Shown here: piece after piece, positions 3,978-64,000 of the stretch
Position numbering within the stretch: position 1 is the stretch's first letter
How the letters are laid out: every line of letters starts with the position of its first letter
DNA from: Planctomycetota bacterium
GTDB lineage: Bacteria > Planctomycetota > Phycisphaerae > UBA1845
NCBI GenBank assembly: GCA_030616775.1
Contig: JAUWWQ010000016.1
Span: 1-64,000 of the forward strand
Reading direction: 5' to 3'
DNA length: 64,000 nucleotides
Made by a program: the position numbers and the translations under genes
Notes under the pieces: model-generated
Told to the model about the DNA's origin: nothing
Databases searched by the model: none
What the model saw: the letters and a program-made list of their open reading frames with translations, nothing else

Positions 3978-6185
3978 TTACTCATCCACAGCCAGGGCAT
4001 TGTCCAAAGCGACGATCTCATAGCAACCTACCGCGCCGGTGTGGTCGAACTCCACAACATCGCCGACGCGTTTGCCCAACACCTTCTGAGCCAACGGAGC
4101 CTGGTAGTTGAACCAGGCCTTGTCCGGGTCCGCCTCCCACGGGCCCAGGAACGACACCTCATACGGCTCCCCGTCCGTGGTACGCCTGAAGATCACCTTC
4201 GTCCCAATACCCACATGGTCCGTCGGCACGTCGGCTGGGGAGAATACTCGCGCCGCCGCCACTTCGGCGTTCATCTGAGCGAGCCGAGCCCGAAGCAGAT
4301 CACGTTCCTCCAACGCGAACTTGTATTCGGCGTTTTCGCTGAGATCACCATGGCTGGCCGCCCGCCCGATCGCCTCGGCGTTTTCCTTCATCTTGACGTT
4401 GACATGATGGTCAATCTCGTCCTGCTTCCGGGCCAACCCGGCTTCGGTGACGTAGAGCACGTCGTCAAGGGCCCACGGCTGAATCCTCTTCCCCTTTTCA
4501 GCCGGTGGGAAGCGGCGGTTCAGACGGCTGAGCAAGTCCGCCTGTACTACTCGTCCGAGGTTGTCGAGGAGTCTGACCTGGTTGCGCAACGCACTGCCCA
4601 TGCCCGCCTCCAGGGTTTCAAGGCACCGGTCGAACGTTTCGTACTTGCGAGCCGAGAGAACCGCCCGGGCGCGGGAACCCAACTTCCGCGCCGTCTCACG
4701 CGGCACACTGTCGCTCCGGCGACACTCGTCCAACGCGCGAAGAATGCGCGACAAAAGCGTCACCGGCGCCGGGGCGGGAATGTGCCGTTCTTGCGAAGGG
4801 CCGCCCCACAACCACAGCAGGGCCTCGAAATGCTCGAGCGGCGAAGCCATGATCTCCTGCACGATTGGCTCAAAGTCAGCCAATCCACGACCGGCTTCGA
4901 TCAGCCGCCTTGCTGCTCGATCGCAGACCGCCGATGGAAAGGTGGGTAACAACGCCGCCAGGTGATCCTGCCAGTCGTCCGGCCGGGCCTGAATCAAGAT
5001 GCCGCACGCACGTTCGAGCAGTTCTTCGCCCTCGATCTGCCCGAAGACCGCGCTTAAGTCGGTCGCGATGCTGAATAGATCGGTCACTTCTTTGGGCATG
5101 GTTTCGATGCCGGCGGCCTGCCCGATACGGCATGCGATCACCCAAAACAGGCCAGCCTGGACCGCGCCCTCTTCGGTGAGTCGTTTGGCCCGTTCGACAA
5201 AACTGACAAAGCACTGTCGCAGCGCGGGCTCGGAAGGTTGTTGTCCACGGGCCTTGCATTCTCGAAGGTACTTATTCACCAGCTCGAGCTGTCCCAGCGG
5301 ATCGTACAGGCTTTCAAACGTCTCCAGCACTTCCTCTTCCAGCGCAGCCGGTGTCTCAACATACGTCAGCTCATACGGCGACCGTCCCTTGATCTTGACA
5401 TTCGGACACTTCCGCAGTGCCGTCCGGGCACGTGTCCACCATTTCGACCAGTCGGACTCGAACAGCAACCCCGGCACTAGGATGGTTTCCAGTTTGTCGC
5501 TGTCGATGTGATCGTCGTACTGCCTGCAGATGTCGATAACGATCGGCACCGGGTCGTCCCAAAGTCGCTTGCCAAGTTGATCGGGAGAAAAGTGCCGGGC
5601 CACCCTGAACTCCGTCGATGCAGCCGGCTGGTAGCGGTCCGCGAGATGAACAGCTCCGAGCGCCTCAGTACCGTCGCGCCCCGTTATGGTGTACTTCCAA
5701 CAGGACGCATCGATCTTGTCCACCCGGGCGGCCTCGTCCTCGTGGCGGGCTACAAGGAAGTCGCCTTCCTTAAGCGCTAAACAGACCTCGAGGGTCCTTA
5801 GAGCACGTCTTACAGGCCGACCTCCACCAAGGCCGGATTCGGCGAGCAGCCCATCGAGTCCTTCACGATCGCCATAAGCAGATTGGTAAAGTCCCACGAT
5901 CTGAACCCGGAGCTCTTCACTCTCCCCAACGGCAAGCAGAAACGGACCCGCTACGGTCAATACCTCTTCCGGCGTATAACGGGCAGCCAGCATCTCAACG
6001 GCCGTCCAGGCAAGCTCTTCCGCTTTAGAGGTCTCGCCCACCCGGCACAGCTCAGCCAGTACGCTCTGATAGACCGCAAGACGCGCCAGCGGAGTGTCCG
6101 GGGCCTCGACAAGGCGCATCCACTCTTCTTCAACCGTGGAGATGTTGCCGCTGGCAATCAGTTGGGCCAGGGATTCCGGCTTCAT
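3978..6185 (-). CDS. greA: GreA/GreB transcription elongation factor fused to a large N-terminal helical region
   Basis: The last 157 residues (from about 579; bases 4451 to 3978) are a full-length GreA: an antiparallel coiled coil with the tip motif HGDLSENAEYKFALEERD, whose acidic residues reach into the RNA polymerase secondary channel to stimulate transcript cleavage, followed by the FKBP-like domain (GIGTKVIFRRTTDGEPYEVSF ... VLGKRVGDVVEF). Ahead of it are about 578 residues with no domain I recognise, rich in Leu/Ala/Glu helices and looking like a helical repeat array. Ordinary GreA is about 158 residues. The start at 6185 (MKPESLAQLIASGN) is the first ATG after the upstream stop; nearby sequence reads AAGGAGAGTC, a good ribosome binding site. 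No frameshift is visible, so the fusion is genuine in this sequence. Confidence 0.85.
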   Translation of the reverse strand: MKPESLAQLIASGNISTVEEEWMRLVEAPDTPLARLAVYQSVLAELCRVGETSKAEELAWTAVEMLAARYTPEEVLTVAGPFLLAVGESEELRVQIVGLYQSAYGDREGLDGLLAESGLGGGRPVRRALRTLEVCLALKEGDFLVARHEDEAARVDKIDASCWKYTITGRDGTEALGAVHLADRYQPAASTEFRVARHFSPDQLGKRLWDDPVPIVIDICRQYDDHIDSDKLETILVPGLLFESDWSKWWTRARTALRKCPNVKIKGRSPYELTYVETPAALEEEVLETFESLYDPLGQLELVNKYLRECKARGQQPSEPALRQCFVSFVERAKRLTEEGAVQAGLFWVIACRIGQAAGIETMPKEVTDLFSIATDLSAVFGQIEGEELLERACGILIQARPDDWQDHLAALLPTFPSAVCDRAARRLIEAGRGLADFEPIVQEIMASPLEHFEALLWLWGGPSQERHIPAPAPVTLLSRILRALDECRRSDSVPRETARKLGSRARAVLSARKYETFDRCLETLEAGMGSALRNQVRLLDNLGRVVQADLLSRLNRRFPPAEKGKRIQPWALDDVLYVTEAGLARKQDEIDHHVNVKMKENAEAIGRAASHGDLSENAEYKFALEERDLLRARLAQMNAEVAAARVFSPADVPTDHVGIGTKVIFRRTTDGEPYEVSFLGPWEADPDKAWFNYQAPLAQKVLGKRVGDVVEFDHTGAVGCYEIVALDNALAVDE

Positions 6186-6289
6186 GGAACGGTCACACTG
6201 ATCGGGACTCTCCTTAGGATCAATGCCTTAGTATGGCAACTTCGGAGATGTTTGTCGAGGTGCGCAGTTTACAGGTGGTGAGGCGGGGA

Positions 6290-7480
6290 TTATGCGACCG
6301 TATGCCCCAGCGAAGCGGGTTCCCTGACATGATCTGGCGGAGCGAAAGACTGGTCGGTCTCCCCAAGCACCCGTTCGTATACCGCCCGCATCTGCGAGGC
6401 TGTCGCCTTCCAACTGAACGTCCGAGCACGCTGCCGACCACGGTGCACATACTTGGCCCGGAGGTCCGGATTGGCAATCAGCATCCGCATGGCGCCGGAT
6501 ATCTCATCGGCGTTCTCGGGATCCACCAACAGGCCGGCATCGCCCACAACCTCGGGCAAGGCCGCTCTCGCGGCTGCGACCACAGGGCAGCCGTGGGCCA
6601 TGGCTTCGAGCACCGGCAAGCCAAAGCCCTCATCACGCGAGAGCATCAGCAGCAATTGCGCCGACCCATATTGCCGCTCCAGCTCTTGGTCATTGATGTC
6701 CCCGAGAAAACGCACCGGTGCATCGCCGGGAAGATTTCGGTATGCCGTAGCCGCGGCACCCCGGAGTGATCCAACGAAACCCGTCAACCGAAGCTCCAAT
6801 GCGCGGTCGTATCGCTCCCAATAGCGCCGCATCGCGGCAAACACGGCGGCTATGTTCTTCCGGGCTTCGTAACCGCCGACGTAGAGCACGTACGGCGGAC
6901 CAGGAGGATCGGGTTCAACCGTTCGACTGTCTGGTACAACTACACCGTTCGGAACGGTCAGCACGCGCCGCGGATTCAGGTATAATATGTCAAGAGCCTG
7001 ACGCTTGATGTGTTCACTAACGGTAGTGACGTAGGACGCTCGTCTTGCCGATGCACGGACCGCATAGCGGTAACATGACCGCTGCCTGACCGTAGCGAAG
7101 TGCTCTTTGGGGTTCTTCCACGGAATCAGGTCATGGATGGTCAAGACACTGGGAACGGGGCACAGCGCCGGAACACCGGAATTCCACGTTGAGTGGAATA
7201 CATCGGCACCGGCGCGGCGAATGATACGCGGCAGCACTGTCTCCTCCCACAAGGCCCTGCGACAGGGCGTCCGATGGGTGCGTCGGAAGCTCGATGTGAC
7301 GATCTCGATGTCCTTCCGCCCGGTCCACGGTGAATACACCTCGCACCCGCACAAGGCGATAACCTTGATTCCATCCTGTTCAACCAGCGCATCCACCAGT
7401 CGGGTAACGACACGGCCCACACCGGAAAACCGTCCGATGAGCATCCGTGCGTCGACCATTACACGAATAGGAGACTGCAT
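6290..7480 (-). CDS. Glycosyltransferase family 4 (GT-B)
   Basis: 396 residues starting MQSPIRVMVDARML...GVGRVV, with the Gly-rich donor fold start, the VGGYEARKNIAAVF motif of the second Rossmann domain and DEGFGLPVLEAMAHGCPVVAA, which contains the E-x7-E catalytic/donor-binding motif of retaining GT4 enzymes. An in-frame extension to 7684 exists, but the ATG at 7480 shares its A with the TGA of the upstream methyltransferase (TGATG), so the two are translationally coupled. It is the last gene of the polysaccharide operon and would act on the cytoplasmic side, adding a sugar to the growing chain. Donor sugar unknown. Confidence 0.88.
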   Translation of the reverse strand: MQSPIRVMVDARMLIGRFSGVGRVVTRLVDALVEQDGIKVIALCGCEVYSPWTGRKDIEIVTSSFRRTHRTPCRRALWEETVLPRIIRRAGADVFHSTWNSGVPALCPVPSVLTIHDLIPWKNPKEHFATVRQRSCYRYAVRASARRASYVTTVSEHIKRQALDILYLNPRRVLTVPNGVVVPDSRTVEPDPPGPPYVLYVGGYEARKNIAAVFAAMRRYWERYDRALELRLTGFVGSLRGAAATAYRNLPGDAPVRFLGDINDQELERQYGSAQLLLMLSRDEGFGLPVLEAMAHGCPVVAAARAALPEVVGDAGLLVDPENADEISGAMRMLIANPDLRAKYVHRGRQRARTFSWKATASQMRAVYERVLGETDQSFAPPDHVREPASLGHTVA

Positions 7481-8205
7481 CAGCACATTGGTCTCCGCGC
7501 GGCACAACAAAGCGTCTGCCCTCGCCAACGCCACGGCGGCAGCGTCGACAACCACCGCAACCGGCGCGTTACAAGCCGGCGCAAACGCCACCCCGCCGGG
7601 ATTCCCCGGTAACCACGAAACCAGGGCAAGCCGATGGTTCGCAGGTCGTTGATCGCAAAGCCCGCGTCCGTCAGGACGGCGCAAAGGTCACGGGGGTCGA
7701 ACAGGCGCACGTGTGTCTTGTCATCGTAGACCGCGGGGTCGCAAAAAGCCGGATTGGGCGTTAACAACAACAGCTTTCCACCGGGCCGTAACACCCTCCA
7801 CCACTCCCGGCATGCTTGCTTATACGCGGGGATGTGCTCTACAACGTGTTGCGCGGTGATGGCGTCCAGTTGGTCGTCAGAAAACGGCAATGACGCAGCG
7901 TCGGCACACAATAGTGGAACCGAGGGGAACCGGGCACTGGTGTGCGTAAGCCCCTCCGCACAATAATCAACGCCCAAAGCACGATCTATCCCGATGACTG
8001 GAAACAGAGATCCGTTTCCGCAGCCAATGTCTGCGACCAGGCCTGATTTTGGGGGAAGGTGAAAGCGGACCCAATCCGCCTCCATCTCAAACTCTATACC
8101 ATGCCCCCGACGATGAAAGTGCCTGTCACCCAAGCCGCTTCCAATGTCCGATGGCCGGTTCAATTCCAGTTCTGGGCAAGCTTTCGTGCTCAGTGTCCCA
8201 CTCAT
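7480..8205 (-). CDS. Class I SAM-dependent methyltransferase
   Basis: About 241 residues with a type-11 methyltransferase core: LVADIGCGNGSLFPVIG (SAM-binding motif I), ALGVDYCAEGL (acidic residue after beta 2), DAITAQHVVEHI and WRVLRPGGKLLLLTPNP (motif post III). An ATG at 8217 is possible, but the ATG at 8205 overlaps the previous stop as ATGA, fitting the coupling seen across this operon. Within a glycan cluster it probably O-methylates a sugar or the end of the chain; this is inference from context. The next gene starts on its stop codon. Confidence 0.85.
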   Translation of the reverse strand: MSGTLSTKACPELELNRPSDIGSGLGDRHFHRRGHGIEFEMEADWVRFHLPPKSGLVADIGCGNGSLFPVIGIDRALGVDYCAEGLTHTSARFPSVPLLCADAASLPFSDDQLDAITAQHVVEHIPAYKQACREWWRVLRPGGKLLLLTPNPAFCDPAVYDDKTHVRLFDPRDLCAVLTDAGFAINDLRTIGLPWFRGYRGIPAGWRLRRLVTRRLRWLSTLPPWRWRGQTLCCAARRPMC

Positions 8206-8996
8206 GGCGAGCGCCATGCAAACAGCAGTAAAACCAGACCCATCGTTCCATCCATAAACGACCTGCGATCCACCCAGTCAGGTCCCCAACCAAGCAGGTT
8301 CCTTCCCAACTGGTCGCCTACGGACTGCCAGAACCCCATGCAGCTCCCCTCGATTCGCTTGAAGCCGACGCGTCTGGCCCGCTCCATGAGTTCCCGTTTG
8401 CTGTACGGGAGTTCCAAGCCGTAAGGCCACCTACCCCGCAGTTCCAGATAGAGCTTCCAGACGCGGTATGGAATGCACCGCGCGTTGGGGACGCTGATGA
8501 TCGCCATCCCCTTGGGTGCAAGAACCTCGTAGTGAGCCTGCACAGCTCGCGTGCGGTCATTATCTTTGAAATGCTCAATAACACCCGAGGAAAGGGCGAC
8601 GTCGAATCGGCCGCGAAAGGACTGAAGTGTCGTTAGTATGTCATCACGTTGGTAGCCGGCCTCCAGCCCCAGACGATCGAAGCGATGCCGCGCCTGCCCC
8701 AGCGCTTTGTCGCTGGAATCGAGCAAGGTCACCTTCGCACCGCTTTTGGCCAGAAGGGCGGAGAGATCCCCGCGCCCGCTCCCCAGCTCGATGGTCTTCA
8801 GTCCTTTGATGGATCCAAAAGTAATCTCGAGCTTGTTGACGATCGACACCCAGCGCGGTGAGCGTCGCTCGCGTGCCAGGAGTGAGTCATCTTTGGTGTC
8901 GGACGGAGTGTGGCGCCACAACCGGTCCCAGACAACCGGGCGCGCCGCAGGCGAAGACAGTGTTGATGCCTCTACGCTGTACGGGCCGCAGCACAT
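8202..8996 (-). CDS. Class I SAM-dependent methyltransferase
   Basis: Core motifs are TIELGSGRGDLSALLAKSGAKVTLLDSS (motif I and the acidic motif II residue) and FDVALSSGVIEHF, EVLAPKGMAIISVPN. The C-terminus has a hydrophobic tail (TMGLVLLLFAW) that could touch the membrane. The frame is open far upstream into the preceding glycosyltransferase gene, so the start is uncertain: ATG 8996 gives 264 residues, while GTG codons at 9050 and 9044 lie just after the upstream TAA at 9055-9057. The stop overlaps the next methyltransferase start (ATGA). Two consecutive methyltransferases in an ABC-type glycan operon suggest a methylated repeat or methylated chain terminus. Confidence 0.8.
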   Translation of the reverse strand: MCCGPYSVEASTLSSPAARPVVWDRLWRHTPSDTKDDSLLARERRSPRWVSIVNKLEITFGSIKGLKTIELGSGRGDLSALLAKSGAKVTLLDSSDKALGQARHRFDRLGLEAGYQRDDILTTLQSFRGRFDVALSSGVIEHFKDNDRTRAVQAHYEVLAPKGMAIISVPNARCIPYRVWKLYLELRGRWPYGLELPYSKRELMERARRVGFKRIEGSCMGFWQSVGDQLGRNLLGWGPDWVDRRSFMDGTMGLVLLLFAWRSP

Positions 8997-9054
8997 AAGC
9001 GGGTGTTCCGTGTTCCATTGGGTGGCGGCTGACTCGCAAACCACCGGCACCCGC

Positions 9055-10062
9055 TTATCGGACGGCCGGGCGCGCCCCTTGAGATTCGTATGCTGTCCCG
9101 CTGGCGTTGCCTGCCACCAGCCTTCGTATGGCTGCTTCAAGCATATGGTATAACGTCCGTACGCCAGGCTCGTACCGGAAGGACTCCGCAAAGTGAGCAA
9201 GCGCATCGGCGTAGCGGCCGGCGCGATATGCACTGCAACCGAGCTGCCGACCCAACCGCCCGAGATTCCGCCTGACCGCCCGGCGCTGTTCGCCCGACAG
9301 ATCGTCAAAAGTGTCATGGATTGCGTGCAGCAGATTCTGATAACACCGGGCGTTGCGACGTTTGTCGGTCCGGCTCAGGCTTCCGCGCTGATAGTGGTAA
9401 ATCGACAAGGGCTCATCCACGAAGCCCGCCCGGCATGCCTTAGCGACCATTAAATAGAACAACCACTCCTCGCCGAACATCTGGTCGACCGGGAACCGAA
9501 TCGAAGTTCCGAGAACCTCGCGACGAACCATCCCGACAATGGTTGAGATGAAGTATGCCCGGATTAGCACATCAAACAGATTCCCTTTGCACACACATAA
9601 ACCGGGTCCAACAGTCTCGTAAGGGACCGCGCGAGCTATGGGGTGGGTCGCGTCGAATGCACTCTCATGCCATATGCCGTCAAGATCCACGAACGCATAG
9701 TCACTATAGACAAGCCCGAGATCCGGTCTGAGGTCGAACAGTGCCAGTTGACGCTCCAGCTTGGCTGGCAGAAACTCATCGTCCGAGTCAAGGAAAGCCA
9801 CGAAACGCCCACTGCATACGTCGACGCCGCGGTTTCGCGCACTACTGCTCCCCTGGTTTGGCTGACGGATATAGATGAATCGCTCCTTCAGTCGCTCCCG
9901 GTAGCGTGCTGTCACATCTTCAGTTCCGTCGGTGGAGCCGTCGTCGACAAGGACGATCTCCCAATCGTCAACCGTTTGAGCCACAACAGAGTCCAGCGCA
10001 CGAGGCAGCAGCGCCTGGCGGTTATAGGTTGGCACGATGACCGAGACTGCCGGGCTACTCAT
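9055..10062 (-). CDS. Glycosyltransferase family 2 (GT-A)
   Basis: 335 residues beginning VSVIVPTYNRQALLPRALDSV, with the nucleotide-sugar motif VLVDDGSTDGTEDV and the metal-binding FLDSDDEFLPAKL (DxD) typical of inverting GT2 enzymes. The acceptor region carries GEEWLFYLMVAKACR, an ED-like catalytic pattern. The C-terminal 90 residues are helical and TPR-like (AYRAGRYADALAHFAESFRYEPG), a common tail in planctomycete GT2 proteins. The ATG overlaps the upstream stop by four bases (ATGA). Probably adds one sugar of the exported glycan. Confidence 0.88.
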   Translation of the reverse strand: MSSPAVSVIVPTYNRQALLPRALDSVVAQTVDDWEIVLVDDGSTDGTEDVTARYRERLKERFIYIRQPNQGSSSARNRGVDVCSGRFVAFLDSDDEFLPAKLERQLALFDLRPDLGLVYSDYAFVDLDGIWHESAFDATHPIARAVPYETVGPGLCVCKGNLFDVLIRAYFISTIVGMVRREVLGTSIRFPVDQMFGEEWLFYLMVAKACRAGFVDEPLSIYHYQRGSLSRTDKRRNARCYQNLLHAIHDTFDDLSGEQRRAVRRNLGRLGRQLGCSAYRAGRYADALAHFAESFRYEPGVRTLYHMLEAAIRRLVAGNASGTAYESQGARPAVR

Positions 10063-11438
10063 CGCATACCTGCTTCAACCAGTGAGGCGACCCTTCGATC
10101 CAATTCGCTGTCCCGTCTCACCAATTGATCGAGCACCGCAGCGAGCTTGCCGGTTAAGGTGATCCGGCTATATGGTTCAAGCCGGTCTCTGGGACAGCCG
10201 GGCACAGGCCTTTCCGTTCGCCATGCTTCGTACAGTTCGCTCAGCGCGCCAGCGATGGCCCGCTCATCGAAGCCTACTGACAGCCCGGCTTTGCACGACC
10301 GCACGATGGCTTCACACTCACCGCCGGCCGGGCCCACAACGAGAATAGGCCGCTGCGCGGCTAGATACTCAAACAGCTTCGCCGGAATCACCGATGCCGC
10401 ATTGCGACCTTCAGGAACGTTCAACAGAAGTGCGTCGGCGGACCGCATCTCGCGCACTGCTTCCTCATGCGATACATATCCCGTGAACGCAAACTCGACA
10501 CCGGTCGCCCGGATCTTCTCGCGAGTCACGCTGCTGACATGACCGACGAGACGCAGCACGAATTGCTCCCGGTCAAGTCCAAGCTGCGTGACGAACCGTC
10601 GCAGCCCGGCGAACCAGTCGTCATTGGCACGCCAGTGGTCGAATCTGCCGACATGGGCGAGCACGAACCGCTTTTGGCCCTGAGACGACCCGGTATCCGC
10701 GGAGGAAAAATCCGACGGATCGAACCCGTTGGTGATGGTCAAGAACCTGTGTCGTCGCTTTGGCACATGCCCGGCCAGGATGGCCGTCTGACGATGGCTG
10801 ACGCCTACAACGGCATCCGCCGTCTCGAGAATTTGCTGCTCCAGCCGACGGTGAGCGGCTTGCCGCTTGGGAGAAGTCTCGCAATAGCGATAGTCGTCGG
10901 TCCAAAGATCACGGAAGTCGGCCACCCACGGCAGATTCGTTTTCTTCCTGAGCAGCAGCCCCAGCAAATGGTTGGACGCCGGGCTGAACGTCGAATATAT
11001 CGCGTCGATCCGCTGATCGTGTATCAAACGGCAGAGCGGCCGGAGGCTCGCCCGCGCCCAAGACGAGTATTGATCCGGCATACCGGCCCTGGCAAGCCGG
11101 GCTTCCAGGCGCCAGTCGATGGCCCGGCCGAGATTCGACGCAATGCCGTCACCATCGCTCACGCCGCGCAGCCAGCTTCGCACTCCGCGAAACCTGCCGC
11201 CATCTTGCCGGGCGTGGACCGTCACCTCTTCCGGCAGATCAGACAGCAATGTCGGGTCTTGCGGCATGCCCTCAAGCCCGTCAACCGTCCAGACCGTCGG
11301 CAACCACCCGGACCGGGGCAGATACTTGGCAAACTGCGCCGAGCGCTGCACCCCTGAGCCGCCCGTCGGCGGAAACGCGCAGGCCACCATCAAGACTCGT
11401 CGCTGCCGTTGTTGTGACGTAATCGTGTCGGTAGCCAT
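10059..11438 (-). CDS. Glycosyltransferase family 4
   Basis: About 459 residues from ATG 11438 (MATDTITSQQRQRR). VLMVACAFPPTGGSGVQRSAQFAKYLP is the usual acceptor-side start of the sub-family of GT4 proteins found in exopolysaccharide loci, WVADFRDLWTDDY is a strongly conserved segment of the same group, and PAKLFEYLAAQRPILVVGP forms the donor-binding end. A longer frame to 11525 would overlap the preceding gene by 52 bases and is less likely. Located mid-operon; substrate unknown. Confidence 0.85.
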   Translation of the reverse strand: MATDTITSQQRQRRVLMVACAFPPTGGSGVQRSAQFAKYLPRSGWLPTVWTVDGLEGMPQDPTLLSDLPEEVTVHARQDGGRFRGVRSWLRGVSDGDGIASNLGRAIDWRLEARLARAGMPDQYSSWARASLRPLCRLIHDQRIDAIYSTFSPASNHLLGLLLRKKTNLPWVADFRDLWTDDYRYCETSPKRQAAHRRLEQQILETADAVVGVSHRQTAILAGHVPKRRHRFLTITNGFDPSDFSSADTGSSQGQKRFVLAHVGRFDHWRANDDWFAGLRRFVTQLGLDREQFVLRLVGHVSSVTREKIRATGVEFAFTGYVSHEEAVREMRSADALLLNVPEGRNAASVIPAKLFEYLAAQRPILVVGPAGGECEAIVRSCKAGLSVGFDERAIAGALSELYEAWRTERPVPGCPRDRLEPYSRITLTGKLAAVLDQLVRRDSELDRRVASLVEAGMR

Positions 11439-57740: not shown

Positions 57741-58772
57741 CTATCGTCTCGGAACCGCGCCGGTGGCATAGGCGTCGAGATCAAGGCCGGCTACGTCACC
57801 GCTGACAAGCAGGTGGTAGCCCAGGGCGGCGATCATCGCGGCGTTGTCGGTACAATAGGCCATCTTGGCCGCATGGAAGTCAAGATCTCGCTCGCTGCAT
57901 GCGGTCGCCAGGGCACTGCGCAGCACGCGGTTGGCAGCCACACCTCCGCCGAGGACGACGGTCGGCAGACCGGTCTGGCAAATCGCCAGCATCGTCTTGC
58001 GCACCAGCACGTCGATAACCGCTCGCTGAAAGCTCGCCGCGATGTCCGCAATGTCTTGCGGCGATAGCTTCTCCAACCCACCGGTCGTCCGCCCCTGCCC
58101 ATGAACGTGATAGAGAACGGCCGTCTTGATCCCGGAGAACGAGAAGTCCAGCGAGTTAGGGGCGAGCATCGTTCGCGGAAAGTCGACTGCCATAGGATCG
58201 CCGTTTTGGGCAATTCGCTCGATCTCGGGTCCGCCTGGATAACTCAGGCCGAGAATGGCAGCCACCTTGTCGAACGCCTCGCCGGCAGCGTCGTCTGTGG
58301 TTGCACCGAGCAGGGTAATCGATGTGGGCTGATCAATGCGAAAAAGTGAGGTGTGCCCACCGGATACGATCAGCCCGACCGCCGGCCAGGGTGGCTGGTC
58401 GAGCCCCATCGCGGGGCTACAGGCGTGGGCTTCGATGTGGTCGACAGCGACCAGCGGCTTGCCCCAGACCCAGCTCAACGTTTTGGCAGCCGTAACGCCG
58501 ATCAGCAGTGCCCCGACCAGGCCGGGCCGGTTGGTTACCGCTATCGCATCGATGTGGCCGTGGGAGCAGCCAGCCGCGTCAAACGCTTCTTCGATGACCG
58601 CGTCAAGCCGCTCGATGTGGGCCCGCGAGGCGATCTCCGGCACCACGCCGCCGTACTTGCGGTGCAGGTCCACCTGTGACGCCACGATATTGCTGCGCAC
58701 ATCCTTCCCGTCGACGACAACAGCCGCCGCCGTTTCGTCACAGGATGTCTCGATGCCGAGGATGGTTGTCAT
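57741..58772 (-). CDS. tsaD: tRNA N6-adenosine threonylcarbamoyltransferase
   Basis: 343 residues from ATG 58772 (MTTILGIETSCDETAAAVV). The metal site DHIEAHACS (HxxxH), VGLIVSGGHTSLFRI, GEAFDKVAAILGLSYPGGPEIERIA, DFSFSGIKTAVLYHV, and LGGGVAANRVLRSAL define TsaD, which adds the threonylcarbamoyl group to A37 of ANN-decoding tRNAs with TsaB, TsaC and TsaE (not in the window). Confidence 0.96.
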   Translation of the reverse strand: MTTILGIETSCDETAAAVVVDGKDVRSNIVASQVDLHRKYGGVVPEIASRAHIERLDAVIEEAFDAAGCSHGHIDAIAVTNRPGLVGALLIGVTAAKTLSWVWGKPLVAVDHIEAHACSPAMGLDQPPWPAVGLIVSGGHTSLFRIDQPTSITLLGATTDDAAGEAFDKVAAILGLSYPGGPEIERIAQNGDPMAVDFPRTMLAPNSLDFSFSGIKTAVLYHVHGQGRTTGGLEKLSPQDIADIAASFQRAVIDVLVRKTMLAICQTGLPTVVLGGGVAANRVLRSALATACSERDLDFHAAKMAYCTDNAAMIAALGYHLLVSGDVAGLDLDAYATGAVPRR

Positions 58773-58889
58773 CTTCCACACAGGTGTATAGCAGTGTACC
58801 GGGCCAGGTTCAATATTGGGCGGTGTTCACAAATCGAATATGATGGGCTCTGTGACGTTGGAAAGGCCCTGAGTGATGGCCGCGAGCCC

Positions 58890-59483
58890 ATGAATCGATC
58901 AGCCGTTATTTTTGACATGGATGGGACGCTGACTGAGCCCTACCTGGATTTCGACGCCCTTCGCGCCGAGGTCGGAGTCGAGGGGCCGGTCCTTGAGGCG
59001 ATGGGTCAGATGGACCCAGCTTCCCGGGAACGGGCGGAGGCGGCCCTGCTGCGGTACGAGCGCGAGGCGGCTGAGAATGCCACATTGCAGGATGGGGCTG
59101 TCGAGGTCATCGATGCTTTGCGGGCCAAGGGACATCCGATTGCCATCCTGACGCGCAATGCCCGGGCGACCGTCGATCTTGTCCTGAAGAACCACGGCAT
59201 AACCGTGGATGCTCTGCGTACGCGAGAAGATGGTGCCATCAAGCCGTCACCAGAGCCGGTGCTTTCCATCTGCAAGGAGCTATGCGCCGACCCGCGGCGG
59301 AGCTGGATGGTCGGGGATTACCTGTTCGATATCATGTCCGGTCGGGCGGCCGGAACGGGCACCGTTTTGATGGTCGGGGACAAACCGATGCCGAAGTTCA
59401 CCGACCAGGCGGACTACGTCATCCGCCGACTGGCGGAGTTGCTTACGATCGTCGAGGAGAACCGAATTGTGAATGGCAAATAG
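58890..59483 (+). CDS. HAD-superfamily phosphatase, phosphoglycolate-phosphatase-like
   Basis: 197 residues from ATG 58890. AVIFDMDGTLTEP has the nucleophilic Asp (DxDGT), ILTRNAR is motif II (Thr), DGAIKPSPEPVL supplies the motif III Lys and SWMVGDYLFDIMSGRAAG is motif IV. Helical cap is short. Substrate unknown. Its last 30 or so codons (from PMPKFTDQADYVIRRLAELL) are repeated, diverged, beyond the RAYT element at 60158-60250, implying that the present 3' end may be a replacement. RAYT starts nine bases after TAG. Confidence 0.88.
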   Translation: MNRSAVIFDMDGTLTEPYLDFDALRAEVGVEGPVLEAMGQMDPASRERAEAALLRYEREAAENATLQDGAVEVIDALRAKGHPIAILTRNARATVDLVLKNHGITVDALRTREDGAIKPSPEPVLSICKELCADPRRSWMVGDYLFDIMSGRAAGTGTVLMVGDKPMPKFTDQADYVIRRLAELLTIVEENRIVNGK

Positions 59484-59492
59484 CTAATGGCG

Positions 59493-59517
59493 TGTGTGCC
59501 ACTGCTCTTGAGCAGTG
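59493..59517 (+). repeat. RAYT left inverted repeat
   Basis: 25 bases matching the reverse complement of 60096-60120 exactly; contains the hairpin CACTGCTC-TT-GAGCAGTG. Confidence 0.9.
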
Positions 59518-59531
59518 CTAAAATGCCCTCA

Positions 59532-60086
59532 ATGAAGAATCGCCCACGCAAGACGCGTCGAAGCTGGGATGAGCCGGGGCATGCTCACTATCTCACGTAT
59601 TCGTGCCACCGTCGGTTGCCTCTGCTGTCGCGCGACCGCGTTCGACGATGGGTGGTCGATGCGCTCGAGCGCACAAGGCAGGAGCTCAATGTTGCCCTCT
59701 GGGCTTACGTCGTCATGCCGGAACACGTGCACGTGCTCTTGCATCCGCGCGCACCTCACTACGAAATGCGGCGGATTCTGGCCATGCTCAAACAACCGGT
59801 CGCGAAAGCGGCTCGAAAATGGCTGGAGGATAATCGACAGACCACGTGGTTGGAGCGCCTAACCGTGGCGTACCCTTCGCGTAAGGTCTTCCGGTTCTGG
59901 CAGCCCGGCGGCGGATTCGATCACAATGTTTTTCGGGAGAAGACGGTGTCAGCAATAGTCGATTACATTCACGCGAACCCCGTTCGGCGCAAGCTTGTGG
60001 ATGAGCCGACACACTGGGAGTGGTCGAGCGCGCGCTTCTGGGAGGGGGACCCCAAGGTACCTCTCCAGATGGACGACCCGTTCTGA
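59532..60086 (+). CDS. REP-associated tyrosine transposase (RAYT, Y1_Tnp)
   Basis: 184 residues from ATG 59532 (MKNRPRKTRRSWDEPGH); ATG 59523 adds three residues. AHYLTYSCHRRLPLLSRD begins the Y1 fold; VVMPEHVHVLLHP contains the HUH pair (HVH), and the catalytic Tyr is in DYIHANPVRRKLVDEP. GGGFDHNVF and WEWSSARFW are RAYT-type motifs. RAYTs act on REP-like hairpins as single-strand DNA transposases. No TnpB or accessory gene. Confidence 0.93.
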   Translation: MKNRPRKTRRSWDEPGHAHYLTYSCHRRLPLLSRDRVRRWVVDALERTRQELNVALWAYVVMPEHVHVLLHPRAPHYEMRRILAMLKQPVAKAARKWLEDNRQTTWLERLTVAYPSRKVFRFWQPGGGFDHNVFREKTVSAIVDYIHANPVRRKLVDEPTHWEWSSARFWEGDPKVPLQMDDPF

Positions 60087-60095
60087 TTGAAGAAA

Positions 60096-60120
60096 CACTG
60101 CTCAAGAGCAGTGGCACACA
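60096..60120 (-). repeat. RAYT right inverted repeat
   Basis: Exact reverse complement of 59493-59517, with hairpin CACTGCTC-AA-GAGCAGTG. It starts nine bases after the transposase stop. Confidence 0.9.
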
Positions 60121-60157
60121 TTCAGGTCCCGTCACAACCCCAACAGTGCCACCCCGC

Positions 60158-60250
60158 CCGATGTCGAAGTTCGCCGACCAGGCGGATTTCGTCATTCGCC
60201 GACTGATGGAATTGCTGCCCATCATCGACCGATGCTCGAATGGCGAATGA
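60158..60250 (+). pseudogene. Duplicated, diverged 3' end of the HAD phosphatase gene
   Basis: The frame reads PMSKFADQADFVIRRLMELL ... then TGA, against PMPKFTDQADYVIRRLAELL in the intact gene. By eye 57 of the first 69 bases match (59385-59453 and 60158-60226); half of the changes are at third codon positions. Only the C-terminal 30 or so residues are present, so it is a fragment separated from its gene by the RAYT element. The differences suggest either an old duplication or a 3' end brought in from a related gene. Confidence 0.8.
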
Positions 60251-60478
60251 TGAATAGCGACTGAAGAATGGCGAGAAGCCAGTGCTTGATTCAGATACGG
60301 TCCCGCCCGGATGCTCTTGACCGCAATCGTCCTACTGGACGATTTCGTGGGTGATAACGTCCTTTATTTAGCACTAAACGGGGGAGCTGTAAAGCAGCGA
60401 ACAGACGTGTGACGACCGAGCGCTTACGGCTGCCAGCACATCGGACGAAGACCGCGATACCATCTATCCGTGTGATTA
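60251..60478. other. Intergenic region
   Basis: About 230 bases with GAATGGCGAATGATGAATAG-like short iterations at the left edge and no other recognisable signal. Confidence 0.25.
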
Positions 60479-60706
60479 CTACAACAATCCGGGCAGTAGG
60501 GAGCATGAATAGAACTGATACAGAACGAACAACGTGACTGCCGTACCAGCAACCCACACGATGATTGCACCAAGGCCGATAGCGGTCTTACCAACGGACT
60601 CCGCCAAGTAATCTCGCTCGTCGCCAAGATGAAGTCCGCAGCTGCCGCATTCCTCGGCGTCCGGTTCATTGGCGCATCCGCACTTCCGGCATTTCCTGGG
60701 GTGCAT
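60479..60706 (-). CDS. Small zinc-ribbon membrane protein
   Basis: 75 residues: MHPRKCRKCGCANEPDAEECGSCG, a CxxC-x12-CxxC zinc ribbon of the double-zinc-ribbon type, then an acidic linker and one membrane helix GLGAIIVWVAGTAVTLFVLY. Same plan as the gene at 36549-36785 though without obvious sequence identity. Function unknown. Confidence 0.78.
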   Translation of the reverse strand: MHPRKCRKCGCANEPDAEECGSCGLHLGDERDYLAESVGKTAIGLGAIIVWVAGTAVTLFVLYQFYSCSLLPGLL

Positions 60707-60947
60707 TGCTGACCTCCTGCTACTCCGAACAAGTCACGTCGATCTTCCCCGTTTCTTACGCGTCAATTGGTTAACGTACCCAGCCACCTGACTTGAGATT
60801 GCCAGTGGTGGTGCCTCCATCGCTACTCTGCGCGGCTTGCCGTCCTATTCTCTGATCAGGAGACCCGAACGATGACAACAAGAAAGCCATAGCACACGCA
60901 TCGAATCGCCCATTTTGGCTCAAGAAATTGGGTGTCCTTACCTCACC
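60707..60947. other. Intergenic region
   Basis: 240 bases between two minus-strand genes; no feature recognised. Confidence 0.25.
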
Positions 60948-62009
60948 TCAAGGGCGACGACCAGTACGACGAAGCATCACGTCAAGATTGTGTCGTGCTT
61001 CCGTTGAACCATTTGCAGCCGCTTTTCTGTACCATTCGATTGCCTTGGCATCGTCTCGCGGAACACCTCGGCCTTCACGATACATTGTTCCGAGGTTGTG
61101 CATCGCACGTGCATCGCCTTTGCTGGCGGCACGCTCGTACCAGATCATGGCTTGTTGAATATCCTTTGCGGTTCCCGGTCCACCATTCGCCAGCAGGACA
61201 CCATACGCATACATGGCACCTGGTACTTCCCCTTCGGCAGCCAATCGAATCCACTTATGTGCCGCAGAATGATTCTGGATGACACCTCGTCCAGCCGAGA
61301 ACATTAAGCCCAGTTTGTACATGGCTTCCGGATGGCCGTTTTCTGCGCTCTTTCGAATCAAATCGGCACCCTTTGATTCGTCCTTATGAATGCCACGTCC
61401 CGCGAAATACAGTTGCCCCAGATTGTACATACTCTGGGGATGGTCATTGGCAGCAGCTCTCTCGAACCAGTCAATAGCCTTCGAATAGTCCTGCGAAACG
61501 CCACGCCCTTCCAGGTGGAGAACGCCCATACGATTCATCGCGTCTGGATCGCCGAGCATCGCGGCCTTTTGATACCATTCTATTGCCTGTGTCATGCTCT
61601 GTGGAACACCTTGCCCATCGCGGTACATGTTTCCCAAATTGAACATTGCCTCTGGCACTTCGAGCTTTGCGGCTTTGCGAAACCAATCGACAGCCTGTCG
61701 AACATCCGGCTTAACAGAGAGGCCTTCACGGTAGATGAGTCCCAACGCAAGCATCGCCTCTGGGCTTTCTTGCTCGGCACCCTTCTCAAACCAGCTTCTT
61801 GCCTTGACATAGTCCTGTTGAAGGCCCCCCGCGCCAAAATAGAGAAAACCCAGGGCGGTCATTGCATCGACATTCCCGCTCGCGGCTTGTGCTTGCAATG
61901 CGCTTAGTGCATCCTCGCTTGGGTCGGCAAGAAGCGTCTGCAAGGACAAACATACGGCTACGAGACAAGTTAGGACTGATACACGTTTACCAATAGGATC
62001 GGCCTTCAT
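60948..62009 (-). CDS. Exported Sel1-repeat protein
   Basis: 353 residues. A signal peptide (VSVLTCLVAVCLSLQTLLA) is followed by about eight Sel1-like repeats of about 36 residues, each with the pattern A(M)xxLGxxYxxGxGVxxDxxKAxxWxxKAA, for instance AMFNLGNMYRDGQGVPQSMTQAIEWYQKAA and AMHNLGTMYREGRGVPRDDAKAIEWYRKAA. Sel1 solenoids bind protein partners, often in the periplasm. Start is ATG 62009. No operon neighbours. Confidence 0.92.
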   Translation of the reverse strand: MKADPIGKRVSVLTCLVAVCLSLQTLLADPSEDALSALQAQAASGNVDAMTALGFLYFGAGGLQQDYVKARSWFEKGAEQESPEAMLALGLIYREGLSVKPDVRQAVDWFRKAAKLEVPEAMFNLGNMYRDGQGVPQSMTQAIEWYQKAAMLGDPDAMNRMGVLHLEGRGVSQDYSKAIDWFERAAANDHPQSMYNLGQLYFAGRGIHKDESKGADLIRKSAENGHPEAMYKLGLMFSAGRGVIQNHSAAHKWIRLAAEGEVPGAMYAYGVLLANGGPGTAKDIQQAMIWYERAASKGDARAMHNLGTMYREGRGVPRDDAKAIEWYRKAAANGSTEARHNLDVMLRRTGRRP

Positions 62010-62511: not shown

Positions 62512-63534
62512 CTATTCATCCTTCGCCATTTGCTTTCCCGCTTCTGCTCGCTGTGTGGCCGTGGGGATCGGTTCGGCACGGCGCCTGAGTTCCTTGAACA
62601 TGTCATCTATCGGGCCGTAGAGCTCGGTGAGCTGTTTCTTGAGGTCGGCTAGATCTTCTTCGGCGCCGGTGAAGGTTTCGATGCGACGTTCGAGCCTCAC
62701 GATGTCATCCCGGTGACGGTCTCGGTGGGCGAGGGCACGTCCCTTTAACTCGGACAGAACCGACAAGACAGCCGTGCGTTGCCCTTCGTCGAGCTTGTAG
62801 ATGCGGATGAACTCTTTGACGTACTTGTCCCAGGCTTTAAGCTCGAGGGCAATCTGATCAGTCTCTTGCGACTGTGGTGCGCTCTCGGTGGTCTTTCGGG
62901 CCTGCTCCATCCGGCGGCGGCGTCTTTCGGCGCGGCGCTGACGGCGCTCGGCACCTGTCGGCTCCCAGAATTCGTATTTCTCGAATTCCCCCTTTTGCCA
63001 CTGCTTGAGCTTCTGCTCGGCGACTTGCATGCCAACGCCGAATTGCAAGGCCTCCAGTTCAAACTCCGCCCTCTGGAGAGGATTTAGTATCTCGCGAAAC
63101 TCGGAGGTTCCCTGGTTGACCTGCTGGCGAAACTGCCCGAACACCGGCATCGCCCGCTTGGCCCACGCCTGCACCTGCTCTTTCGCGGGCGGCTCCAACT
63201 CCATCCGCATCTCGACAAACTCGTTGGCCAGCGGCTGAATCGTTGAGCGATTCTCGTTGAGAAAGGTGCCCCAGCGTTCGACCACGGCCTGGCGCACCTT
63301 GGCCCGCTGGTTCTCTTCCAGATCGTACTTGCGACTGATCTGATCCGCCCACCGTGTGAGCATCAGGTTCATGAGCTTCTTGGAAGGCCAAAGCCCTTCG
63401 GGCAAAGTGGGGGGCTGAGCCTGTGTCTCCCGTCGAGCGGGCGCAGGAGTATCTTTCACCTCCGGGGGCACGGATTCGCCGGATCCCGGCGGGGAAATGA
63501 AAGCAACGAGGATGAGGGCTAGCTTGAACAACAT
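62512..63534 (-). CDS. Exported coiled-coil/helical protein of unknown function
   Basis: 340 residues from ATG 63534 (MLFKLALILVAFISPPGSGES), a signal peptide. The mature chain is strongly helical and highly charged: QISRKYDLEENQRAKVRQAVVERWG, QRRAERRRRRMEQARKTTE, YKLDEGQRTAVLSVLSELKGRALAHRDRHRDDIVRLERRIE. The two 'L(D/E)E(N/G)QR' segments recall the helix pairs of Spy/CpxP-like periplasmic proteins, an uncertain match. Upstream frame to 63735 is repeat-derived and excluded. Confidence 0.7.
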   Translation of the reverse strand: MLFKLALILVAFISPPGSGESVPPEVKDTPAPARRETQAQPPTLPEGLWPSKKLMNLMLTRWADQISRKYDLEENQRAKVRQAVVERWGTFLNENRSTIQPLANEFVEMRMELEPPAKEQVQAWAKRAMPVFGQFRQQVNQGTSEFREILNPLQRAEFELEALQFGVGMQVAEQKLKQWQKGEFEKYEFWEPTGAERRQRRAERRRRRMEQARKTTESAPQSQETDQIALELKAWDKYVKEFIRIYKLDEGQRTAVLSVLSELKGRALAHRDRHRDDIVRLERRIETFTGAEEDLADLKKQLTELYGPIDDMFKELRRRAEPIPTATQRAEAGKQMAKDE

Positions 63535-63563
63535 CGCGTTCTCCCCACTTGTGCGAATCGGAC

Positions 63564-63620
63564 ACCGGTTGAAAACCGGTGCCACTTTCCGGTTGAAAAC
63601 CGGTACCACATTCCGGTGCC
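63564..63620. repeat. Tandem palindromic doublet (ACCGGTT-GAA-AACCGGT)
   Basis: Two 24-bp units starting CCGGTTGAAAACCGGTGCCA at 63565 and 63589, with a third partial at 63613. Each holds a perfect stem CCGGTT/AACCGG. They lie in the shared 5' region of the divergent genes at 63534 and 63699. Confidence 0.8.
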
Positions 63621-63698
63621 ATACCTGGTAATGGGCCGCAGAGTCCGGCACCCACCGGCCGATAAAAGTCCCAGCGGCGGTCGATCGAGGAGGACCAG

Positions 63699-64000
63699 GT
63701 GGGTGCACCTCATATTGTCTCCATAGTTGTTCCAACGTTCAACCGCTTCGAGGGACTGAGACGCTGCATCGACGAAATCCGACACAACATTACACATCCC
63801 AATGAGGTCATTATCGTGGATGGCGGCTCCACCGACGGCACGCGCGAGTGGCTGGCCACGCGGGACGATCTACGAATCATCCTCGAATCGCAGCGTGAAG
63901 GGGCGGTCAAGGCCTTCAACAAGGGATTCCGGGCGGCGACCGGGCACTATGTGATGTGGCTTAACGACGACGCCTACCCTCTGCCTGGCAGCGTCGAGGC
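63699..64000 (+). CDS. Glycosyltransferase family 2, N-terminal part (runs off window)
   Basis: Open from GTG 63699 to the edge (100 codons seen). GAGGAGG at 63687-63693 is five bases upstream. IVSIVVPTFNRFEGLRRCIDEI and VIIVDGGSTDGTREW are the GT2 donor-site motifs, and MWLNDDAYPLPGS the DxD-type metal site (DDA). The 3' part lies outside the window, so substrate and full length are not known. Confidence 0.9.
   Translation, partial: MGAPHIVSIVVPTFNRFEGLRRCIDEIRHNITHPNEVIIVDGGSTDGTREWLATRDDLRIILESQREGAVKAFNKGFRAATGHYVMWLNDDAYPLPGSVE

Follow-up and report, generated by a model that had tools for sequence, protein, structure and literature searches.

How does the end of a gene come to stand twice, once on the gene itself and again beyond a transposase element lying behind its stop codon? 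The question is raised by a locus in the 64,000-nucleotide stretch of planctomycete DNA analyzed here (the window), where an intact HAD-superfamily phosphatase gene (58890–59483, + strand; Pfam PF00702/PF13419) is followed by such an element and then by a second, orphaned phosphatase 3′ end. The genomes compared include that of the window (G000), two of the same genus (G001 and G002), one of another genus (G004), and one of another family (G038). The phosphatase reading frame closes with TAG at 59483, and its orthologue in G002 is 97% identical in amino acid sequence at a dS of 0.29. Its neighbors, tsaD (57741–58781) and a gene at 62512–63735, likewise adjoin it in relatives, and in several members of the family the phosphatase and the next shared gene are directly adjacent. 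Where G002 has a 758-aa ankyrin-type gene, G000 carries a Sel1-type repeat gene and a small ORF that resembles a zinc ribbon (60479–62009).

The transposase gene (59523–60086, + strand) encodes a REP-associated tyrosine transposase (RAYT) of the HUH/Y1 type, as judged from matches to the profiles NF047646 (93.1 bits, cutoff 80) and PF01797, with an HVH motif at residue 68 and a candidate catalytic Tyr within DYIHANP at residue 148. As the first-pass annotation of this DNA had described, the gene is placed just after the phosphatase stop between perfect 25-bp inverted repeats, namely a left REP (59493–59517, + strand) and a right REP (60096–60120, − strand) that are complementary at 25 of 25 positions and each fold as a 7-bp hairpin. 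The REP foot is GTGTGCC and lacks the tag of the GTAG class. Only two further copies, both degenerate, occur in G000, and many are present in G012, G007, and G001.

The same annotation had closed the element at the right REP, which proved too early. A right terminal segment (60121–60158, + strand), common to G001 (at another locus), G002, and G038, carries the element 38 nt further to its true right end at a 15-bp terminal repeat, CAGTGCCACCCCGCC (60144–60158). G001 has, at a locus unrelated to this one, a RAYT of 82% identity whose homology to the window extends from 59494 to 60158, and the homology of a 97% identical RAYT situated after the same phosphatase in G002 ends at that same base, beyond which G002 has the 3′ end of an ankyrin-repeat gene instead of a tail copy. 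Because the homology of relatives stops there, the window element is delimited by the left REP and the right terminal repeat at 60158. A left terminal repeat is absent from the window element, so that the left REP, recognized by repeat analysis and from relatives, is also its left limit and faces the phosphatase stop. Full-length relatives measure 752 bp with a 15-bp terminal repeat at each end; the seven close copies in G038 carry this repeat on both sides (GGCGGGGTGGCACTG ... CAGTGCCACCCCGCC, altered at one or two positions in a few of them), at a distance of about 40–45 nt outward from the REPs. The REP–spacer–terminal-repeat pattern was found 28 times in 397 genomes, compared with 0 for the reversed control.

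Ends of this kind also occur away from any RAYT match (L264, L265, L266, L268, L270, and L271, in G064, G029, G004, and G038) and are possibly non-autonomous derivatives of the element. The G002 locus L111 has a tandem duplication (10856–10967) of the 56 bp with which the element begins, made up of the left REP and the RAYT leader. A further arrangement in G038, L210 (G038:C1:2610001–2624000, 4537–9535), consists of a tandem array of three units of ~1,578 bp, every one containing a RAYT element, and a fourth unit in inverted orientation; more copies of this unit lie elsewhere in that genome, one pair being 100% identical, and the L210 RAYT looks recently mobile.

One 752-bp copy in G038 sits inside an RHS-repeat gene, and its removal restores the reading frame (...GYDEDATSGEFGQPMKF...), with no target duplication seen at this copy. 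Given such a clean insertion, transposition alone need not produce a tail copy. The analogy with integration at tRNA genes that had been drawn for the window is likewise dispensable, and site-specific integration of that type was rejected, there being no tRNA nearby and no integrase needed.

The orphan tail (tail B; 60158–60250, + strand), delineated by repeat analysis, homology search, and codon comparison, begins exactly at the element end, the C at 60158 being assignable to either, and has its own stop, TGA (60250). Its counterpart, the attached tail (tail A; 59385–59493, + strand), takes in the phosphatase stop and the roughly 10 nt of 3′ flank that separate it from the REP end of the element, a stop-to-REP distance that is equal in G002. 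The in-frame copy reported earlier is genuine: the direct repeat (59385–59455/60158–60228) is 83% identical over 71 nt, the flanks align locally with a score of 54 against a shuffled maximum of 14, and the 197-aa phosphatase query retrieves the copy again at an E value of 3.5e-6. Over 24 codons the tails agree in 59 of 72 bases and 17 of 24 residues. These differences had been taken as biased toward synonymous changes; they in fact comprise 8 nonsynonymous and 5 synonymous ones (dN 0.16, dS 0.38, dN/dS 0.43).

Four of the six residue changes in tail B lead to residues common in 39 orthologues, with P between 0.001 and 0.004 under neutral decay modeled as random substitution without stops, the statistic having been picked after seeing the data; the changes thus appear, with moderate support, to suit functional orthologues better than decay. 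Tail B is probably a within-genus allele, since it has in common with G000 and G002, and not with the other genera inspected, the stretch PMxKF as well as an end formed by the dispersed repeat AATGGCRAAT. A dispersed repeat (AATGGCGAAT-type, AATGGCGAATAGCG-type), present many times over in several genomes of the family, has a copy at 60238–60270 (+ strand) and occurs again after the phosphatase stop (59470–59493); in both tails, the final codons and the region of the stop derive from it. For the DNA behind tail B, a search of 51 family genomes returned only dispersed repeats and an intergenic match of ~105 nt in G001. The latter (60318–60422, 75% identical to G001:C61:10371–10471), with a core at about 60349–60395 that is also present in G000:C73, G061, and G033, is a conserved intergenic element.

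Which of the two tails is native can be approached through divergence. Between G000 and G002 the phosphatase has a dS of 0.29, even along the gene, and the downstream gene (62512–63735) one of 0.28; most genes compared fall at 0.23–0.30, some higher. The RAYT differs by only 0.03, against 0.29 for the phosphatase (Fisher P 9e-7). Three of the ten bases from stop to REP differ, which fits the rate of the genome and not that of the element (P 0.0017). These values, with the change of divergence located at the REP, imply that element and gene have separate histories. Because the dS of the phosphatase equals the genome average and that of the RAYT is far lower, the attached tail was most simply inherited with the genome, the RAYT having arrived or been exchanged much later. 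Tail B is the outlier to both G000 and G002. We infer from these comparisons that in G000 the attached tail is native and that the RAYT and the orphan tail are foreign. Recent paralogy of the two tails within G000 was ruled out, as tail A is nearer to the G002 tail than to tail B; a recent transfer of phosphatase and RAYT as one block was ruled out by the genome-average dS of the phosphatase, and a composite element with a captured gene because no left terminal repeat was found in front of the phosphatase gene.

The check proposed at the outset, a search for other RAYT loci bearing gene-tail copies, was carried out as a screen for similarity between left and right flanks at forty-odd RAYT loci, from which arrays of palindromes, tandem copies of the element, and repeats belonging to a repetitive gene were removed. 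Two loci stood out, L222 and L121, both in G004 and both in genes unrelated to the phosphatase. At L222, the gene stop is followed after ~150 nt by the REP end of the element, and past the terminal repeat the final 540 bp of that gene recur; L121 has an equal arrangement at a TPR-like gene, with an orphan tail of about 100 bp. At all three loci, the window included, the orphan tail starts exactly at the terminal-repeat end and the intact gene lies on the side of the REP-only end, and the RAYT is oriented either way relative to the gene. Orphan tails are found at three of the seven RAYT loci with a single terminal repeat and at none of the G038 copies with both. Candidates rejected as tail copies were the direct repeats at L118, L214, and L215, which are REP arrays; L128 and L129, which look like palindromic repeat arrays as well; L141, accounted for by tandem element copies; and L223, accounted for by repeats of an RHS gene. 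At L135 (G036:C14), direct repeats of ~254 bp that are 88% identical (997–1249/2629–2881) flank a RAYT, though not at its ends.

The L222 tails can be compared over 178 codons and display 30 synonymous and 7 nonsynonymous differences (dS 0.304, dN 0.017, dN/dS about 0.055), together with an in-frame length difference and nonhomologous post-stop 3′ flanks. The low dN relative to dS and the unrelated flanks strongly support the reading that these tails are two alleles that selection kept as functional genes during almost all of the time after their divergence, not a decaying duplicate. The L121 tails (dN 0.17, dS 0.18 over about 100 bp) do not tell allelic origin from decay. Only one more orthologue of the L222 gene, 62% identical, is present in the family, and native and foreign tails are not distinguishable there. 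The core of the first-pass proposal, that the tail is not a transposition product and marks a meeting of two gene versions, is thus strongly backed at L222 and moderately so in the window.

On balance we favor the explanation that two alleles of the phosphatase gene were joined at a RAYT element to give the chimeric locus of the window. An element with a terminal repeat at each end would, in one lineage, have inserted into the phosphatase ~90 bp before its stop, with CGATGTCG as the proposed break point. Recombination would then have joined the inner REP to an intact allele that retained its stop codon and a few following bases, displacing the interrupted 5′ portion together with the terminal repeat on that side and leaving the order intact gene, REP, RAYT, REP, terminal repeat, and orphan tail of the other allele. 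The crossover would have used the short homology of a REP already present behind the stop of the intact gene; the REP is proposed as crossover point from the position of the junction at all three loci. All this suggests that the tails are scars of a swap between gene versions, one of them broken by the element, and not copies made by it. Direct support extends to the anatomy, the element ends, the clean insertion of a relative, the three like loci, and the two-allele origin at one of them; the window tail by itself (24–30 codons, dN/dS 0.43) is too short to prove allelic origin. Neither an element-broken allele nor a donor allele was found in the 51 family genomes, and G002, which has the same left junction and a different right flank, would call for a second similar exchange or a deletion.

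A simpler history would be a duplication of ~108 bp linked to insertion (a long target duplication or a duplication join) near the split of G000 and G002, with the downstream copy decaying in G000 and lost in G002. The repeat copies abut both element ends as a target duplication would, the 12 changes in tail B fit neutral decay since the split (about 10 expected from a dS of 0.28), and an IS at a duplication join without target duplication is on record (PMC11708052). We nevertheless consider this history unlikely: the G038 element in the RHS gene shows no duplication, the RAYT with its dS of 0.03 is far younger than the split, the residues of tail B suit functional orthologues, and at L222, the matching case, such a history is excluded, since both tails were under selection and their flanks are unrelated.

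The main technical worry is an assembly chimera, in which contigs of two strains, one with an intact phosphatase followed by the RAYT and one with the RAYT inside the phosphatase, were joined through the RAYT repeat. The G000 assembly consists of 108 contigs and that of G004 of about 210, the element exceeds short-read length, and most genomes compared are probably metagenome assemblies. Such a misjoin is nonetheless quite improbable, given that the single-contig G002 independently has the order phosphatase, REP, RAYT, terminal repeat (the left half of the structure), that a random join would not hit the same gene again as is seen at three loci in two genera, and that the gene at 62512–63735 shows the usual divergence from G002. 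Slightly less credible still is the direction given in the first-pass annotation, whereby the element brought in the now attached tail as foreign DNA and stranded the native one. Topologically this is the same chimera, and equal distances would be obtained from a donor about as far removed from G002 as G000 is; against it, dS between the attached gene and G002 is at the genome average over its entire length, the tail being no exception, and it is tail B that stands apart from both genomes. Nor did the element restore the gene with a foreign tail that it carried, for in G002 this RAYT likewise stands behind the phosphatase and a tail copy is missing.

RAYTs are usually portrayed as genes that mostly occur in single copy and are maintained close to REPs at the ends of genes. 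The relatives encountered here behave as mobile elements of the ordinary kind, which have definite outer boundaries and jump into genes; at some loci, the 3′ end of a second allele is retained. More tentatively than the allelic chimera itself, REPs may act as portable homology by which an incoming intact allele with a REP after its stop rescues genes broken by a RAYT. If so, the element and the old gene end together form a scar, REP–RAYT systems would have a recurrent role in allele exchange, and the resting of RAYT elements just behind stop codons would be partly explained. With the orphan tail as a readable scar, allele exchange at REP/RAYT loci becomes datable and countable, and comparing tails makes the role of REPs at gene ends testable.

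Components of this picture are known separately. REP-flanked RAYTs and terminal-repeat-flanked RAYT-like genes (TIRYTs) have been described (PMC3733652, PMC6006769), T6SS and Rhs genes provide examples of 3′ regions stranded after allele recombination (PMC5361080), and REPs are known recombination hot spots (PMC11708052, citing Shyamala 1990). Neither an element combining REPs with terminal repeats nor allele-tail scars at the terminal-repeat end of one were found in the literature searched, the coverage of which was incomplete. The window element resembles RAYT/TnpA-REP systems (REPtrons) in having a HUH/Y1 REP-family transposase between two inverted REP hairpins beside a gene end, and differs in its further outer terminal repeat, in REPs starting GTGTGCC instead of GTAG, and in belonging to a family that is multicopy and mobile in G038 and G004. 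IS200/IS605 elements similarly have a Y1 transposase, subterminal hairpins, and no target duplication (as in the G038 RHS-gene copy), but they lack terminal inverted repeats, whereas full-length relatives here have 15-bp ones, and the RAYT scores below the cutoff of the IS200/IS605 profile NF033573. TIRYTs/TIRtrons (PMC3733652; subclass 2.1 in PMC6006769) pair a RAYT-like transposase with terminal inverted repeats, and their motif GGGGWSAS (PMC3733652) is matched by GGGGTGGC at 7 of 8 positions by eye; the present element also has inner REPs, and the window copy has the repeat at its right end only, while G038 copies have both. The duplications associated with REPs or IS elements in PMC11708052, which cites Shyamala 1990, likewise involve REP hot spots and an IS between related copies without target duplication, although the copies there come from one genome and are initially identical, in contrast to the diverged alleles here. 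In the C-terminal displacement of Rhs and T6SS effectors (PMC5361080), older 3′ material is similarly stranded when a version of the gene carrying a new 3′ end becomes joined upstream; the anchor there is the gene's own 5′ part with an illegitimate junction, and the two tails have no transposase element between them.
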